Positions 2,069-29,980 of a stretch of 64,000 nucleotides of DNA are shown piece by piece. Location: positions 124,001 to 188,000 of the forward strand of contig MPNC01000005.1 of NCBI GenBank assembly GCA_002238825.1, written 5' to 3'. A model generated the notes under the pieces. The model saw only the letters and a program-made list of their open reading frames with translations. It ran no database searches and was not told where the DNA came from. The DNA is from SAR202 cluster bacterium bin87 (GTDB taxonomy: Bacteria; Chloroflexota; Dehalococcoidia; Lucifugimonadales; UBA3495). Made by a program: the position numbers and the translations under genes. Every line of letters begins with the position of its first letter. Positions within the stretch are counted from its first letter, which is position 1.

Positions 2069-3478
2069 TTACACTGTTGCCGTCCGACGAAAATCGGAGC
2101 GCACGTCGTTTCCACCCACGTCCAAAACGGCTACACCTCCCTGCGCCCTGATGTCGGCGGCAGCGCGCAGAGCGGCGGCGTTGGACCCCTCGTCGTCTGG
2201 GGATATCAGGACGGAGTCGGGATCAGTTTCGGGCTCGTCGGCCGGCGGCATCGCGGACAGCAATGCTTCCACGGTGCAGGCGAAACCCAGGGCGGGCACG
2301 GGAGCCGGACCGCCGAGAGCGCGGGCCAGGGCATCGTACCGTCCGCCGCCGCCCAGAGAAGCGTCCGCGTCGCCCCGAACGATGTCGAAGATAATGCCGT
2401 TGTAGTACGCGATACCACGGGCCAGGGAGAAGTCTATCTCCAATCGTCGGGACACCGCGGGGTCTTCACCAATGAGGGAAGTCAATGCGATGAGCCGGTC
2501 GATGGATTGTGTGTCCGCGCCGGCAGCGGCAACGATGGACTGGGCCCGGGGCAGTGCGTGGGCTGGGTCGCCCTTGACGGAGGCGAGCTGACCGGCCAGG
2601 GCGAGGCCGCGTTTCACCGCGTCGGAGGCGTCGCCGCCGCGCAACTTGCGCAGCAGGCGGTCGACGATCTCATCGGGCGTGCGGCGGCCCAGGGGCATGT
2701 CTGCCGACGTGTTCCAGCGCATGAAACCGGCCAGGACGGAGCGTGCCGCGCCGTCGGGAAGACCCGTTACGGCTACGGCGAGGTGCTTCTCCTCGTCGGG
2801 GAGGCCGATACCGGAGACGACGTGGAGCTCAGCAGCCCGCTGCAAAGTCGCCGCGAGACTGTCGCCGCTTTCGCCGATACGGTTCATGTTGGCGACGATG
2901 AACTCGCGGGCGCGGTCGGACAGGCCAACGGTGTCCAGCACGCTGTCCAGCACATCGAGATCGGCCAAGCGGATGCGATAATCGGGGATGCCCAACTCCG
3001 CGGGGATTCCGGCAGCGAGGGTCAGTAGCTCGGCGTCGGCGAGGATGCTGTTGGAACCGACCAGCTCAGCGCCGACCTGGGTGAACTGGCCCGTGTCGGC
3101 GGCGCTGCCAGTGTCGTAGCGGAAGACCGGACCGCAGTATTGCCAACGAACCAACGGGGACTCGTCGCTGTGCCCGTGGATCTCCAGATAATGCCGCATT
3201 ATCGCCGAAGTGAACTCCGGCCGCAGGCTGATGGCGTTGGAGCCGGGGTCAACGAAGGAGTACATCTGCGAAGCCAGGTCGCCGCCGGATTTGCGCAGGA
3301 AAAGCTCGGTGGTTTCCAGCACCGGGACTTCCAGCGCCGAATAGCCGAAGCGGCCGATGAAATCGGCGAGGCGGCGCTCGACATCCTGCTTGCGCTGACG
3401 CGCACCGGCGTCGAAATCACGCATGCCGGGCAAGCGGCGCACCGGATTGGGGCGAACGGACGAAACGGCAGAAATCAT
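2069..3478 (-). CDS. hisZ: ATP phosphoribosyltransferase regulatory subunit (HisRS-like)
   Basis: About 469 residues of class II histidyl-tRNA synthetase fold. It has the motif 2 block RWQYCGPVFRYD (about 111-122), the HisA-like ARGIAYYNGIIFDI, and LGGGGRYDALA. The C-terminal anticodon-binding domain is only a remnant of about 45 residues, so it is unlikely to be a true HisRS. Its place directly upstream of hisG supports HisZ, the regulatory partner of ATP phosphoribosyltransferase. The chosen ATG has no clear Shine-Dalgarno; a GTG six codons upstream (3496) is the alternative. It is the first gene of the his operon. Confidence 0.8.
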   Translation of the reverse strand: MISAVSSVRPNPVRRLPGMRDFDAGARQRKQDVERRLADFIGRFGYSALEVPVLETTELFLRKSGGDLASQMYSFVDPGSNAISLRPEFTSAIMRHYLEIHGHSDESPLVRWQYCGPVFRYDTGSAADTGQFTQVGAELVGSNSILADAELLTLAAGIPAELGIPDYRIRLADLDVLDSVLDTVGLSDRAREFIVANMNRIGESGDSLAATLQRAAELHVVSGIGLPDEEKHLAVAVTGLPDGAARSVLAGFMRWNTSADMPLGRRTPDEIVDRLLRKLRGGDASDAVKRGLALAGQLASVKGDPAHALPRAQSIVAAAGADTQSIDRLIALTSLIGEDPAVSRRLEIDFSLARGIAYYNGIIFDIVRGDADASLGGGGRYDALARALGGPAPVPALGFACTVEALLSAMPPADEPETDPDSVLISPDDEGSNAAALRAAADIRAQGGVAVLDVGGNDVRSDFRRTATV

Positions 3479-14024: not shown

Positions 14025-17000
14025 TCATGAAGTGGTTGCGGGATTGGTACGGGCGCCAGCTTCCTGCCGGGCCTCAATGTCGGTCTCAAGTTCGAGGTAC
14101 ATGCGTCGAAGCTCGTCCAGCATTTCCGGCGGTGGGTTTTCCCACATGCCGCGCTGGACCGCCTCCAGCAACCGTTCGACGATACCCCGGAGGGCCCAGG
14201 GGTTGCTCTGCCGGAAGAACTCCTGCATGTCAGGATTGAGAACGTACTCCTCGGTGACGTCCTCGTACATCCAGTCCTCGATCACCTGGGCGGTGGCGTC
14301 ATAGCCGAACATGTAGTCCACGGTGGCGGCCAATTCAAAGGCGCCCTTGTACCCGTGGCGCTGCATGGACTGCATCCACTTGGGGTTGACGACGCGGCTG
14401 CGGAAGACGCGGCGGGCCTCGTCCTGCAGGTCCCGGACCCGGGCGCGCGACGGATCGCTGCTGTCCCCGAAGAACTGCCGGGGGTTGCGGCCGGTCAGCG
14501 AACGGACGGTGGCGATCATCCCGCCGTGGTACTGCATGTAGTCGTCGCTGTCGAACACGTCGTGCTCGCGGTTATCCTGGTTCTTGGCGGCGATGACGAT
14601 CTGACCGAATCGGGTGCGGAACTCGTTGCGGGCGGTGACACCGAAGTCCTGCCGTGAGTACGCGTAGCCGCCCCAGGAGGTGTATACCTCCGCAAGGTCG
14701 TGGACCGTTTCCCAGTTGCGCTCGTCCAGCACGCCGAGGATGCCAGCGCCGTAGGCGCCCGGCTTGCTGCCAAAGATGCGGAAGAGTGTCGGATCTCCGG
14801 CGCTGTCGGTAGATTCCTGTTCCGGAGCGGCGGCGCGGCGTTCCGCATCCTCGCGGACGTGCTTGACGACGTAGTTGTCCTCGGGGGATTCATCCTGGGC
14901 GGCGGCCAGGGCCACGGCCTGGTCGATCAGGTAGATGAGGTTGGGGAAGGCGTCGCGGAAGAAGCCGCTGATGCGAACCGTGACGTCGATGCGGGGACGG
15001 CCCAACTCGGAGATGGGGATCACTTCCAGGCTGCTGACCCTCCGGCTCTCGGCCTGCCAGACGGGTTTCACGCCAAGGAGGTACAGGATCTGCGCGATGT
15101 CATCGCCGTGGGTGCGCATGGCTGAGGTGCCCCAGACAACCACGCCCACCATTTCGGGGTAACCGCCTTCCTCGTCGAGGTACTTCTGCAACAGCGCGTC
15201 GCCCAGGGACTTGCCGACGTCCCACGCGGTGGGCGATGGCAGGGCGCGCGGGTCCACCGAGTAGAAGTTGCGGCCGGTGGGCAGGACGTTGACCATGCCC
15301 CGGGTAGGCGCTCCGGAAGGACCCGGCGGGACGAACCGGCCCTCGAGGCCGCGCAGCAGGTTGTCGATCTCGTCAGTGGTGCGCAGGAGGGACGGGTAGA
15401 TGTGCTGGCCCACGTAATCAAGCACGCCTTGAACTCGGGGGTCGTCCCGGCCCAACGCGTCCGCGACGACGCCTGGGATCAGATGGGCGGCGAAGCCATC
15501 GTCGCAGAGGCGTTGGTATGACTGCCGGCACAGGGATTCCAAGGCCTCGATGACATCACCGGCGTTGCGGATGGGCGAATCCTCGTCAACGCTCCGTAGA
15601 GCCGATGGCGTGCTGCCATTGACCGCCGCTGCCGGGTCCTCGAGCAGTGCGTAATATTCGTAGCCGAGGGCTTCGGCGAATGATCGGCGCAAACTGGGAA
15701 CGGCCCCGTTATCGAGACGGGTCAAGGCGCAGAGCAGGCCCACCATCTGCTCGTCGGTGGGCGGCTGACCGAGCGTGTGGAGTCCGTCCTTGATTTGAGC
15801 GTCCTTGATCTCGCACAGATACCCGTCGATTTCCAGCATGAATTCCGGGAAATCGTCGGGCTGTTCTTCCACGCCCAGGTCTCGGTGGAGCTCAGCCTGC
15901 TGCACCATCTCCCAGATCTGGGCCTCCAGCGTGGGAAGCTTGGCCGGGTCCAGGGTCTGGCACTGGTAATGCTCGTCCATGAGCTGCTCCAGTTTGGCGA
16001 TGTCGCCGTAGGAGTCAGCGGTGGTCATGGGCGGGATGAGGTGGTCGATGATGGTGGCGTGGGTACGGCGTTTGGCCTGGGTGCCCTCACCGGGGTTGTT
16101 GACGATGAACGGATAGAAGAGCGGTATGTCGTCCAGGGCCACCTCGGGATAGCAGGCCTGGGAGAGACCGACGCCCTTGCCCGGCAGCCATTCCAAGGTG
16201 CCGTGCTTGCCGATGTGTATCATGGCATCGGCCTTGAAGACGTCACGGATCCAGCGGTAGTAGGCGATGTAGTGGTGTGTCGGCGTGAGATCCGGGTTGT
16301 GATAGACCGAAATGGGGTTCTCGCCGAAACCGCGCGGGGGTTGCAGGCCCACGAAAACGTTGCCCATGGGCACGCCGGCGATGGCCAGGCGGTCGCCGGC
16401 GCGGTACACCTGGCCGGGCGGGTCGCCCCAGGCATCCAGCAATTCGGCGCGGACCGATTCGGGGAAACCCGCGTACCAACGAGCGTAGTCGCGGCGTTCG
16501 ACATGGCCGGCTGCGAGGCGAAGCTGCTGTTCGGTCAGGCTGTCGGTGTCGTTGCTGCAACGCTCGATGATGCGCTGGACCAGCTCATCGCCGTCGGCAG
16601 GGATGTCTTCGACCATGTACCCGGCGCGTTTCAGGGCCTGGAGCAGGTTGATAGCCGACGCCGGGGTGTCGAGTCCGACGGCGTTGCCGATGCGAGCGTC
16701 CTTGGTGGGATAGTTGCTGAGGATGATGGCGATGCGCTTGTCGGCGTTGGCCTTGCGGCGGAGAGCCGCGTGACGCGAGGCGAGTCGGGCCAGGTAGTCC
16801 ATGCGGTCCGGTTGGGCGACGTAGCGCTGCATGCGGCCGGCGGATAGAGTGTCGGGCGCGGCGGCGGTGTCCTCCTTGAACGACACCGGAACCGTGATGA
16901 TCCGGCCGTCGAACTCGGGGAAGGCGACGTTCATGGCGGTGTCGATGGGACCCAGCCCGAGCGAACTTTCCTCCCATTCCGTGCGGGTTCCGGTGCTGAC

Positions 17001-17921
17001 GATGCCCTGGAGAATTGGCACGTCGAGGTTGTCGAGCAACTCCTGGGACCAGCCGGTGGCGACGGTGGCGCCCGTGCCGCCCTGCTGGTGATCGAGGTCG
17101 CTCATCGCCAGACCCATGGTGTTCACGATGCAGTCCACGCGGGGGATGCCGTCGGGATCGACCATGTATTCTGTCAAGGTATGGCCGCCGTCAGCTTCGC
17201 CGTCTTCCGGTTGGTGCTTGAGGCTGTAGGAGAACACGGGGAGGACATTGACGTCCTGGGCCTCGAGGTTTGCGATGAGGTCGTCGATGAACGCCAGGTT
17301 CCCGCTCATCCAGTGCGCGCGATAGAACAGGACACCCACGGAAGGACGGTCCGGGGAGAATCGGGCGAGACGGTAGTCGCCGACGGAAATGCCTTCGGCC
17401 ATCTCGGGATGATAGATGCCCTGCCACGGCATGGGCGCCGGCGCCTCGTGGCCGAAATCGCCGCCCAGGTAAGTATCGGCCAGGAAAAGGAACAGGTTGC
17501 GGAAATTGAGCACGCCGCCGCGCATCAGATAGGAGAAGACGGTCTCGACCTCTGCCACCGGAGCGGTGCAGGCTGCAACCAGGTCGTCATCCCATTCCTG
17601 GTGCCCGGGGCATGCGATCAGCGGCGTGCGGTTGCGCAGGCAGATCTCCCACAGGGGATCGAACACCTCGCCCAGGGCGCGCCGGCCTCCCAGCAGGCGG
17701 AGCACGACGGCAGAGGCGGCATCCACAGCTTCCAGCAAATCGCGACGGGCAGTCGCCGCGTCATCCGTGTCACCCTCCAGGGCCACCGGGTTGAAGGCGA
17801 GGACAGTCACAGCGTCGCCCCACGGCATCCCCACCAGCGCGCGCTCCGCCGTGAGGATATCGGTATCGGCGGTGGTAACCAGTACGATGGAACCGGCAGC
17901 GTTCTGCGTTTCGGTGGTCAT
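14025..17921 (-). CDS. cobN: Cobaltochelatase large subunit
   Basis: A 1298-residue CobN/BchH-type protein, the porphyrin/corrin-binding subunit that inserts cobalt into hydrogenobyrinate a,c-diamide with an ATPase partner. Seen blocks include [17 protein letters not shown] and [22 protein letters not shown] in the middle, a [17 protein letters not shown] block, and [19 protein letters not shown] near the C-terminus. The length fits CobN. It starts 3 bases after cbiE, and the partner ATPase (fused chlID) is four genes downstream in the same run, behind a B12 riboswitch. Confidence 0.95.
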   Translation of the reverse strand: [1298 protein letters not shown]

Positions 17922-17924
17922 GGA

Positions 17925-18623
17925 TCAGTCCGGTTCCTGACTAGGTCGGGGAAACACCATGATGGAGAGATCGCTGAATTCTTCGGTGACGCGAGCGAGT
18001 TCGGCCAGGGTACCCTCCCAACGCTGTTCGTCGGGCAGAGTGAGACGCTGAAACACGATGACGGGGTGTTCAGTCTCGGCGCCGTCGGTGATGGCGTTAG
18101 CGGCGATGGCCGGCGGCATGAAGTCGAAGGGGCGGGGGAGCAGGATCACATTGCGGCGACCCTGGTTCAGCGTGTCGACCAATTCGCCCAACTCGGAGCC
18201 TCGATCCCAGCGCTGGTGCAGCGTCAGGAACAGCGACTCTTCCAGGGATATTCCGGAACGGGCACAAGCCAATTGGATGCTGCTGACGCCGGGCACCAGC
18301 TCGACGGTCTCAGCGCGACGGCGGACGCGGTTCAGCAACTCCTTGGCGGACACGTTCAGGTCTCCCCAAACGCAGACCACGCACTGCATACCCTGCCGGG
18401 CCTGCTCCTGCGCGTAGTCCAGAACGGATTCCTGGTCGCGGTACGCCATGGGGCGCACCTCGGCGTTGCCCGTGCAGCCGGCCACCACGTCGAGGACGGT
18501 CTTGAACCCGACCACGAGGTCGGCGCCCTGAATTGCATCACGCCCCTTGAGGGTGAGCATGTCAGGGTCGCCGGGGCCGACGCCCACGACGGTCATTTTG
18601 ATTCCCGCATTTGAGGATGTCAT
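17925..18623 (-). CDS. cbiE: Cobalt-precorrin-7 / precorrin-6Y C5-methyltransferase
   Basis: 232 residues of the tetrapyrrole methylase fold (PF00590). The N-terminus VVGVGPGDPDMLTLKG is the family opening, and VPGVSSIQLACARSGISLEES...LH is characteristic of CbiE. The mid GDP loop reads WGDLNVS instead of the more usual SGDPxFYG. It methylates the corrin ring at C5 in B12 synthesis. CbiT, often fused or adjacent, is not seen here. The first ATG is at 18623; a second at 18596 (MTVVGVG) is equally plausible. It is the first gene after the riboswitch terminator. Confidence 0.82.
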   Translation of the reverse strand: MTSSNAGIKMTVVGVGPGDPDMLTLKGRDAIQGADLVVGFKTVLDVVAGCTGNAEVRPMAYRDQESVLDYAQEQARQGMQCVVCVWGDLNVSAKELLNRVRRRAETVELVPGVSSIQLACARSGISLEESLFLTLHQRWDRGSELGELVDTLNQGRRNVILLPRPFDFMPPAIAANAITDGAETEHPVIVFQRLTLPDEQRWEGTLAELARVTEEFSDLSIMVFPRPSQEPD

Positions 18624-18672: not shown

Positions 18673-18772
18673 CAGTGTTGTCGCGGATGTCGGTTGGCGC
18701 AATTGGATGATCGACCGACTCGCAGCGTGCACCAGAACGACCCTGTTGAGCGCAGAGCAGAGTTCCGAGGCA

Positions 18773-18950
18773 ACACCGGGCAGGTCTCCTGGCTTGCGGC
18801 TCGCAGCCGTGGCGACGCCTTCCCGCGATCCGCATGGTGCAGACCGCAGTGGCAAATCGTCGGACGGCTCCCCGCTTACAGTGGCGCAACCGCGGCGGAT
18901 TCTCACCGCCTTCCCAATTAAGCCGTTGGTATCGAATGGCGCCCGGGTGT
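18773..18950 (-). promoter_or_regulatory. Cobalamin (B12) riboswitch aptamer
   Basis: The B12 box AGCCAGGAGACCTGCC is present exactly (18794-18779, minus). Other conserved parts follow the class order: GGGAAGGCGGTGAGAATCC (18915 downward), GCCACTGTAA, a second CCACTG, and GGGAAGG. The ends close a P1 stem, ACACCCGGGC (18950-18941) with GCCCGGTGT (18781-18773). It should sense adenosyl- or hydroxocobalamin and control cbiE-cobN-cbtBA-chlID. Confidence 0.92.
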
Positions 18951-18990
18951 CCAGATTTCGAATTTTAATCAGCGGACGAACCGCGTAGTC

Positions 18991-27640: not shown

Positions 27641-28714
27641 CTAATCTGCGGGTACGGCGACCTCGCTGCCTATGGCCTCGTAGGCCCATTCGAGCAGGTC
27701 GACGGTCTCATCCCAACCGATGCAGGAATCGGTAATGGAGATGCCGTATTCCAGGTCCGACGGATCTACGCCAAGCTTCTGTGCGCCGGGATGGATATTG
27801 CTCTCGAGCATGACGCCGATGAGATCGGAGTTGCCGGCGATTCGCTGCTGCAGGACATCGCGGAGAGCGATGTGCTGGCGGGTGTGGTCCTTGTTGGAAT
27901 TGCCGTGGCTGCAATCCACCACTATTGGCGAAGGCGCGCCCGATTTGCGGAGAGCGTCAGCGGCGGCGGAGATGGAACGGGCATCGAAGTTGGTTCCGCT
28001 GCGCCCGCCGCGCATGACCAGGTGGCAGTTGGGATTGCCCCGGGTCTCGACAATGGAGGCCTGGCCATCGTGGTCGATGCCCAGGAAAGCCTGAGGGGTG
28101 CCGGCAGCGACGAGGGCGTCCACTGCCGTCTGAGGATCGCCGTCGGTGCCATTCTTGAAACCGACGGGCATGGACAGGCCGGAAGCCATCTGGCGGTGGA
28201 TCTGGCTCTCGGTGGTACGCGCGCCGATGGCTGCCCAGGTGACGAGGTCGGCGACGTACTGGGGCACGATTGGGTCGAGGAATTCGGTGGCGGAACTCAG
28301 TCCGGTTTCAGCGATCTCCATGAGGAGTTTGCGAGCGCGGTGTAGGCCGTCTTCAATCTGGTAGGTGTCGTTGAGGTTGGGATCGTAAATGAGGCCCTTC
28401 CAGCCGACGGTGGTGCGCGGCTTCTCGAAGTACACGCGCATGACGATCATGATGCGGTCGCTGAGCCGGTCGGCTAACGGCTTGAGACGCGCCGCGTAGT
28501 CCAGCGCGCCCGAATGGTCGTGAATGGAGCAGGGGCCAACGATGACGGCAAAGCGCTCGTCGTCGCCGTTGAGCACGTTTTCGAGTTGGCGCCGGCTGTC
28601 CAGCACCACCTCTTCCGCTTTAGCGGTGAGGGGAATGCGGGCCTCCAGTTCGGAAGGCCGGATCAGCGCGTTGTTACTCATCACGTTCACGTCTTTTGCC
28701 GGTGAGATTGCCAT
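27641..28714 (-). CDS. 3-deoxy-7-phosphoheptulonate (DAHP) synthase, class I AroFGH type
   Basis: About 357 residues. It joins phosphoenolpyruvate and erythrose-4-phosphate in the first step of the shikimate pathway. Visible family blocks are VIVGPCSIHD (about 60), MRVYFEKPRTTVGWKGLIYDP, SATEFLDP, WAAIGARTTESQIHRQMASG, VMRGG, and VDCSHGNSNKDH. The length and motifs fit the E. coli AroG/F/H class. The ATG at 28714 has AGGAGG 8 bases upstream. The gene lies behind a Tyr/Phe-rich leader peptide and an intrinsic terminator. Confidence 0.93.
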   Translation of the reverse strand: MAISPAKDVNVMSNNALIRPSELEARIPLTAKAEEVVLDSRRQLENVLNGDDERFAVIVGPCSIHDHSGALDYAARLKPLADRLSDRIMIVMRVYFEKPRTTVGWKGLIYDPNLNDTYQIEDGLHRARKLLMEIAETGLSSATEFLDPIVPQYVADLVTWAAIGARTTESQIHRQMASGLSMPVGFKNGTDGDPQTAVDALVAAGTPQAFLGIDHDGQASIVETRGNPNCHLVMRGGRSGTNFDARSISAAADALRKSGAPSPIVVDCSHGNSNKDHTRQHIALRDVLQQRIAGNSDLIGVMLESNIHPGAQKLGVDPSDLEYGISITDSCIGWDETVDLLEWAYEAIGSEVAVPAD

Positions 28715-28763
28715 CTTTTTGTCCTCCTGACCGTACCGGATGCGAGGGGCTGAGGTTACCAAC

Positions 28764-28798
28764 AAAAAGGACTTCAGCCTCCGTCCGGCTGAAGTCCT
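28764..28798 (-). terminator. Attenuator terminator before DAHP synthase
   Basis: A 12-base perfect stem (AGGACTTCAGCC, 28798-28787, with GGCTGAAGTCCT, 28779-28768) followed by five U, 50 bases before the ATG. It follows a leader ORF rich in Tyr and Phe codons. Confidence 0.85.
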
Positions 28799-28822
28799 GC
28801 CAAAGTGGTTGTCACCAAGTTT

Positions 28823-28927
28823 TTATCGGGCTTCCCATGCCGGGTTTACGCTGGCCGTGTTGCGGTAAGCGTAAAAGTAGAATGGGCGATAATACCCGGG
28901 GACGATTTGGCGGCAGGCGGTATTCAT
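28823..28927 (-). CDS. Tyr/Phe-rich leader peptide of DAHP synthase (attenuator)
   Basis: A 34-residue ORF starting at ATG 28927 and ending TAA at 28823. Residues 11-22 read GYYRPFYFYAYR: seven of ten residues from 12 to 21 are Tyr or Phe, and one Trp follows at 31. It lies between a strong promoter and an intrinsic terminator upstream of the shikimate-entry enzyme. This is the classic layout of ribosome-mediated attenuation: stalling at scarce aromatic codons would allow read-through. The ATG is only about 4 bases after the predicted start of transcription, so it may be leaderless. Confidence 0.75.
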   Translation of the reverse strand: MNTACRQIVPGYYRPFYFYAYRNTASVNPAWEAR

Positions 28928-28937
28928 ATCGACGAAA

Positions 28938-28966
28938 ATGCTACTCCGGTCATATTGCGTTGTCAA
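28938..28966 (-). promoter_or_regulatory. Sigma-70-type promoter of the DAHP synthase leader
   Basis: A perfect -35 TTGACA (28966-28961), a 17-base spacer and TAGCAT (28943-28938) on the minus strand, just after trpA. Confidence 0.75.
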
Positions 28967-29028
28967 CGGCGGGAAGGCCCTATTTCGGAAATTGCTGGTA
29001 AAACGGTACCCGTGCGCCACGATTCGAA

Positions 29029-29847
29029 TTATTGCGACCGTCCCGCGAGTTCGGCCACGACGGCGGCCCCGCGATCAGCGGCTTGCTCATCTGGGCCATC
29101 GGACAGGGCGCGCACCAACAAACTGCCGACCACCGCCGCATCTGCCCTCTCGCCAACGTTCAGCACGTGCTCGCGGCTGGAGATGCCGAAGCCGACCGCG
29201 ATCGGGAGGTCTGTACGCTGGCGGACCCGGTCGACCAGGTCCAGGCCGCGGCCGGACACTTCGGAACGAGCGCCGGTGATCCCCACCACGCTGGTGCAGT
29301 AGACGAAACCGCCGCCCAGCGCGACCGACCGCTCGATGCTCTCATCGGTGCTGGTGGGAGCGAGCAACGGGATCAGACGGACGCCGCAGGGGTCGAGTTC
29401 GGACACAAACGCCTCAGCCTCCGAGCTCGGCAGGTCAACGATGATCAGGCCGTCGACGGTGGCCTCGGAACAGGCCACGGCAAATTCCTTTAGTCCGAAG
29501 GACATGACCGGGTTGTAGTACCCCATCAGGATGAGCGGGGTGTCGCCGACCCGAGGGCGGAGCGCAGCCGCAGTGTCCAGGCAGTCCCGAGCGGTGACGC
29601 CGTTTTGCAAGGCCAGGTAGCTGGAAGCCTGGATCACGGGCCCCTCGCCGATTGGATCGCTGAACGGTATACCCAGTTCGATGGCATCCGCGCCGGCTTC
29701 CACCAGTCGCGGAACTACGTCCAGGGCCGCATCCTTGTACGGATGACCGACGGTTACGAAGACCACGAGGCCAGGCCGGTCTTCAGCCTTGATGGCGGCG
29801 AACTTGGCGGCGATACGGTCAGGACGGGTTGCGGTCGAGATTGACAT
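29029..29847 (-). CDS. trpA: Tryptophan synthase alpha chain
   Basis: About 272 residues of TIM-barrel fold that split indole-3-glycerol phosphate into indole and glyceraldehyde-3-phosphate. The active-site segment is AIELGIPFSDPIGEGPVIQ: the catalytic Glu is residue 57, while the position of catalytic Asp60 in E. coli is here Glu68 (IGEG instead of LADG). YYNPVMSFG and VGFGIS are also typical. The ATG at 29847 is preceded in frame by a GTG and a TTG. No trpB is in the window. Confidence 0.92.
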   Translation of the reverse strand: MSISTATRPDRIAAKFAAIKAEDRPGLVVFVTVGHPYKDAALDVVPRLVEAGADAIELGIPFSDPIGEGPVIQASSYLALQNGVTARDCLDTAAALRPRVGDTPLILMGYYNPVMSFGLKEFAVACSEATVDGLIIVDLPSSEAEAFVSELDPCGVRLIPLLAPTSTDESIERSVALGGGFVYCTSVVGITGARSEVSGRGLDLVDRVRQRTDLPIAVGFGISSREHVLNVGERADAAVVGSLLVRALSDGPDEQAADRGAAVVAELAGRSQ

Positions 29848-29980
29848 GGGCGGCACTCTGGGCAAGTTCGGATTACAACTAGACTATCCTACGGGCCGGC
29901 GGGTGTCCAGACAGCGCGGACGAACGTAGTGTCGCAGCGATACCGGATCAATCGCCTGGGGACGGTTGACACTCACCGAT

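Follow-up and report, generated by a model that had tools for sequence, protein, structure and literature searches.

Probable ribosome-mediated Tyr/Phe attenuation of DAHP synthase in a Dehalococcoidia lineage

Between trpA and the gene for DAHP synthase lies a short stretch with a promoter, a small reading frame and a terminator, which raises the question of whether translation of that frame governs transcription of the gene. A preliminary description of the window, the whole stretch of 64,000 nucleotides analysed here, had read these elements as a promoter, a 34-residue leader with seven aromatic residues in ten and a terminator with a 12-base stem and U-tract, in the layout of ribosome-mediated attenuation. 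All of them were found in place on the minus strand (Table 1), and the downstream gene, which the description took for DAHP synthase, scores 471 bits with TIGR00034 (aroFGH), for which the cut-off is 173, and also matches PF00793. Judged from sequence comparison and from a model of ribosome positions, DAHP synthase is very probably controlled at this locus by ribosome-mediated transcription attenuation, with charged tRNA-Tyr and tRNA-Phe as the signals sensed.

Table 1. Features of the DAHP synthase locus; positions are those of the window except for the trpE leaders, which are given in their own loci.
Feature	Position	Strand	Remark
-35 box TTGACA	28961..28966	-	present in 12/12 congeners
-10 box TAGCAT	28938..28943	-	ends 10 nt upstream of leader ATG
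Leader ORF MNTACRQIVPGYYRPFYFYAYRNTASVNPAWEAR	28823..28927	-	ATG 28927 to TAA 28823; 34 codons + TAA
Control codons TAT TAT CGC CCA TTC TAC TTT TAC GCT TAC	28865..28894	-	5 Tyr + 2 Phe per 10
Region 1 CGGGU	28894..28898	-	possible pairing with GCCCG 28831-28827 (anti-antiterminator)
Hairpin UUUACGCU-U-ACCG/CGGY-C-AGCGURAA	28845..28875	-	within leader ORF
Region 2 CCGGC-N4-GAAGCCC	28828..28843	-	last codons of leader ORF; antiterminator 5' side
Small hairpin UGGU-GACA-ACCA	28806..28817	-	between regions 2 and 3, in antiterminator loop
Region 3 AGGACUUCAGCC + loop GG	28785..28798	-	terminator 5' arm = antiterminator 3' side
Intrinsic terminator	28764..28798	-	12-bp stem, 7-nt loop, TTTTT tail
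DAHP synthase, class I aroFGH type	27641..28714	-	SD AGGAGG 28728-28723
trpA, tryptophan synthase alpha	29029..29865	-	upstream neighbour, same strand; outside switch
trpE T-box leaders	L144 (own genome) 2994-3219; L147 1173-1381; L152 1129-1366	- (L144)	

The promoter, with its 17-nt spacer, gives 10/12 matches against 0.2 expected in shuffles, and the leader ORF has no Shine-Dalgarno sequence. Translation of DAHP synthase likely starts at the ATG behind AGGAGG, about 50 bases 3' of the terminator. No second pair of ORF and terminator of comparable quality was found elsewhere in the 64,000 nucleotides. Apart from this locus, the window holds a cobalamin riboswitch (106 bits, 18762-18961, minus strand) preceding two ORFs named by eye, one resembling a precorrin methyltransferase (17925-18623) and the other a CobN-like protein of 1298 aa (14025-17921).

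A single DAHP synthase gene was detected in the genome of origin, a MAG of 4.96 Mb in 67 contigs, in a search for three types of the enzyme. The aroFGH type occurs in 13 of 14 genomes of the genus; no other type was found there, as TIGR01361 picked up the aroFGH gene again with scores under its cut-off, and PF01474 gave no match. Twelve of the thirteen genes are 82-100% identical to that of the window. The thirteenth (G007, locus L031) is 51% identical and has no such leader, which suggests that in this genome the gene and its control may have been replaced together.

All 12 congeners with the 82-100% identical gene have the promoter (TTGACA-17-TANNAT), the leader and the terminator hairpin in common. 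The leader core in the genus reads GY[YC]RPF[YW][FL]YAYR, and at the seven control positions of the 12 genomes 79 of 84 codons remain Tyr or Phe, or in one case Trp. The terminator hairpin is paired in 99% of cells of this comparison (12/12 congeners), region 1 (CGGGU:GCCCG) in 93% (12 genomes, with one compensation of C-G to U-A), and the hairpin inside the leader ORF in 92%, its core pairs being invariant. Moderate support was obtained for the small hairpin between regions 2 and 3, with 83% of cells paired. The RNAalifold consensus of the genus recovered the terminator and the hairpins with scant covariation; the sequences vary too little.

An antiterminator, the pairing missed in the preliminary description, was found at the end of the leader ORF. 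In the fold before region 4 is made, CCGGC-N4-GAAG.CC pairs with GG.CUUC.GCCGG and encloses the small hairpin; region 2 resembles the 3' arm of the terminator. Since the terminator 5' arm, together with the two loop bases that follow it, serves as the 3' side of the antiterminator, the two structures are mutually exclusive. The leader CCGG and the GGA of the terminator loop are invariant in the genus though the terminator does not need them, which is explained by their position in the antiterminator, and within the genus 97% of cells preserve its GAAG/CC pairs and 100% its GGC:GCC pairs. Two other helices taken from the window's own fold, GCCAAA of the early leader with UUUGGC beside the terminator and the CCCAU:AUGGG form of the 1:2 helix, were rejected, neither being kept in the genus.

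The copy in the window carries a C.A mismatch, and taken alone its antiterminator fold was no better than that of codon-shuffled versions (p = 0.14); a duplex test restricted to the terminator 5' arm, which misses the loop pairing, gave p = 0.72 for the window. Over 11 representatives across genera, codon-shuffling of the region-2 segment worsened the fold with a Fisher combined p of 2.5e-8, and a simpler duplex test gave p = 5e-15 over 21 loci, which are not all independent. The statistical strength of the antiterminator comes from recurrence of the pairing in other genera with unrelated sequence rather than from the window itself. Such pairings are GAGUCUUU:AAAGACUC in L055 and GAGUCUUU:AAAGGCUC in L057 (3' side consensus AAAGRCUC), UUGUUGC:GCAACAA in L032, UUGGUGU:ACACCAA in L016 and AAAGGGC:GCCCUUU in L024.

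Leaders rich in Tyr and Phe, unalignable with that of the window, were also observed elsewhere in the class, ahead of DAHP synthase genes from other genera, families and orders, with peptides such as MKITWGGYGYYYYFFTG..., MIENYFTYYYYF... and MNKNYYTYYYF... and with terminators beginning 13-39 nt past the leader stop. This wider sample was labelled Dehalococcoidia from the names of genus neighbours (Chloroflexi or Dehalococcoidia MAGs). A strict rule, which demanded at least five F/Y/W in ten codons together with a stem and U-tract within 80 nt, was satisfied by 26 of 59 class loci, against 0/295 dinucleotide shuffles and 0/59 reverse strands. The other 33 loci fail the rule, some narrowly (L010, L015, L030 and L033 look similar by eye), and the leader does not stand at every DAHP synthase gene. 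In a set of 80 named DAHP synthase loci drawn from many phyla, the only positives were the Chloroflexota loci L060-L062 and L126, from the Planctomycetota MAG NC_groundwater_1043. The latter has a Tyr/Phe leader, MNVRNASGYYFYSFSYPWRDPGLRELT, with a terminator, between 192 and 108 bases ahead of its DAHP synthase match; this leader comes with a Shine-Dalgarno-like GAGGA, and a matching antiterminator, CAGGGCU:AGCCCUG, can be read from its sequence. This occurrence outside Chloroflexota may represent convergence or transfer.

How the position of the ribosome would select between the two structures was modelled with a footprint extending 13 nt beyond the first base of the A-site codon; the values are equilibrium estimates that ignore pausing and kinetics. 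In the modelled window, a ribosome stalled at any of the seven Tyr/Phe codons leaves region 2 free, and upstream pairing of the terminator 5' arm ahead of synthesis of the 3' arm has a probability of 0.75; with region 2 covered by a ribosome at the stop codon the value falls to 0.25, and with no ribosome it is 0.43. The contrast between stalled ribosome and ribosome at the stop is similar in most other lineages in the model, and L017, L024 and L059 lose it only at their last aromatic codons. Region 1 may in addition compete for the GCCCG of region 2, and a stalled ribosome would cover it. The elements of an attenuator were found together at this locus: a short ORF rich in codons for the products, a terminator between leader and gene, an exclusive antiterminator, and a structure that is switched by ribosome position in a purely thermodynamic model. 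Conservation of the leader and recurrence of the antiterminator both bear out the attenuation layout first described.

Based on these elements, a mechanism is proposed in which transcription would start at most a few bases from the leader ATG, as the spacing from the -10 box indicates, and the ribosome would load on a leaderless or nearly leaderless transcript. With ample Tyr and Phe, it would reach the leader stop and mask region 2, so that the 12-bp terminator could form and DAHP synthase be switched off. Under a shortage of Tyr (or Phe), the ribosome would stall on the YY.PFYFYAY run, covering region 1 and leaving region 2 (CCGGC...GAAGCC) free for the 5' arm and loop of the terminator (GG.CUUC.GCCGG). 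Pairing of regions 2 and 3 would then precede synthesis of the 3' arm, and transcription would read through into DAHP synthase; expression would be expected to respond to starvation for these amino acids.

The same RNA switch could in principle be set by the peptide rather than by its codons, through a TnaC-like arrest in which GYYRPFYFYAYR stalls the ribosome upon binding a free aromatic metabolite. The non-aromatic residues RP and AYR are indeed kept in the genus along with the aromatic ones, but the peptides of other genera are quite different and have Tyr/Phe density alone in common, and the AYR codons sit in an RNA hairpin with an invariant core (UUUACGCUUACCG), which can explain their conservation; arrest of this kind is considered very unlikely. 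That the terminator merely ends the transcript of trpA, located upstream on the same strand, with the ORF as a chance reading frame, is less probable still. A consensus promoter kept in all congeners stands between trpA and the ORF, the leader is kept in the genus, recurs in other genera and was never produced by shuffles, and its end can pair with the terminator arm. An equally slight chance is given to control by another leader RNA, a T-box or metabolite riboswitch, beside which the ORF would be incidental: the same genomes do use a T-box for trpE, but positions 28740-28980 gave no Rfam match, and the ORF nearly fills the stretch between start site and terminator. Attenuation through translation of the Tyr and Phe codons is the reading preferred here.

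The spacing between promoter and leader adds a further property. In 25 of 30 leaders compared, 6-10 nt lie between the -10 box of the sigma-70-like pair (the best of each locus, or the second best for L026) and the leader start codon, the exceptions being L024, L028, L033, L055 and L057, and a Shine-Dalgarno sequence is absent in nearly all of the 30. Transcription usually starts 5-9 nt past the -10 box, so the 5' UTR would measure 0 to about 4 nt. The leader mRNA is thus probably leaderless or nearly so.

Tryptophan appears to be handled by a separate device. In the three genus genomes checked, including that of the window, a divergent T-box stands upstream of trpE and scores 73.9, 66.1 and 60.4 bits, which is below the Rfam gathering score of 93 at E-values of about 2e-11 or better, and a terminator lies ahead of trpE in 14/14 genomes of the genus. 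At DAHP synthase, a search of 28740-28980 for the T-box (RF00230) or any other Rfam leader found nothing at E-values up to 10, in contrast to the trpE leaders of the genus, which match the T-box. Upstream of the prephenate dehydratase genes, no leader of the Tyr/Phe attenuator kind was found. Since trpE has a T-box and DAHP synthase a leader ORF, it seems that Trp would be sensed through binding of tRNA to leader RNA, and Tyr and Phe, at the step with which the common pathway begins, through a translated leader ORF. A broader proposal, which could equally well prove right or wrong, holds that leaderless Tyr/Phe attenuation of DAHP synthase goes back to an ancestor of much of Dehalococcoidia, that ribosomes load on the bare nascent 5' end, and that the switch senses Tyr and Phe only and gates the whole shikimate pathway, Trp being sensed apart by the trpE T-box.

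With apparently a single DAHP synthase in the genome, such a switch would control the whole aromatic pathway. Its occurrence extends classical attenuation to a large and mostly uncultured phylum, in which the antiterminator logic is retained while the sequence changes completely. Furthermore, the promoter spacing suggests that attenuation there operates on leaderless leader ORFs, a point relevant to the way ribosome and polymerase stay in step when there is no 5' UTR. A survey of 2010 knew leader-peptide attenuation only from Proteobacteria and Actinobacteria, to which Firmicutes were added (PMC2965389). The preliminary description held that such control is little described in this lineage, and in the open literature no published attenuation of the Tyr/Phe type in Chloroflexota was found; the broad survey by Lopatovskaya et al. 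2010 could include one. The DAHP synthase attenuator, as its sequence reads, would be a case of classical ribosome-mediated attenuation, a mechanism type already known, and its occurrence in Chloroflexota is apparently new.

Among known systems, the logic of regions 1 to 4, with control codons, alternative hairpins and an intrinsic terminator, is that of E. coli pheL-pheA and trpL-trpE. Unlike these, the present leader stands at the pathway's common entry step rather than at a terminal branch and has no Shine-Dalgarno sequence, and its spacing implies an ORF at or near the very 5' end. The Acholeplasma uORFC-13-1 motif upstream of aroF, a candidate in which a uORF has its Phe codon(s) just before a terminator (PMC8632094), differs in having an RBS, in using Phe rather than Tyr, and in lineage. 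A leader peptide translated without an RBS is reported for the ilvB attenuator of C. glutamicum (Morbach et al. 2000, as cited in PMC4046766); lack of an RBS is the common trait, while the amino acids and the lineage differ, and the leaderless start is here deduced from spacing. In C. glutamicum aroF, the AroR leader with Phe-Tyr-Phe is described as acting by ribosome-mediated attenuation that answers to limitation of Phe and not of Tyr (Neshat et al. 2014, as summarised in PMC11802643; PMC4046766). Going by these accounts, aroR-aroF is the closest known system, with an aromatic leader peptide likewise ahead of a DAHP synthase gene. In contrast to it, the locus described here belongs to a different phylum, carries five Tyr and two Phe codons per ten, adjoins trpA and serves the only DAHP synthase found in the genome. 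The Chloroflexota leader and Corynebacterium aroR are possibly convergent, the leaders being too diverged to align even within the class.
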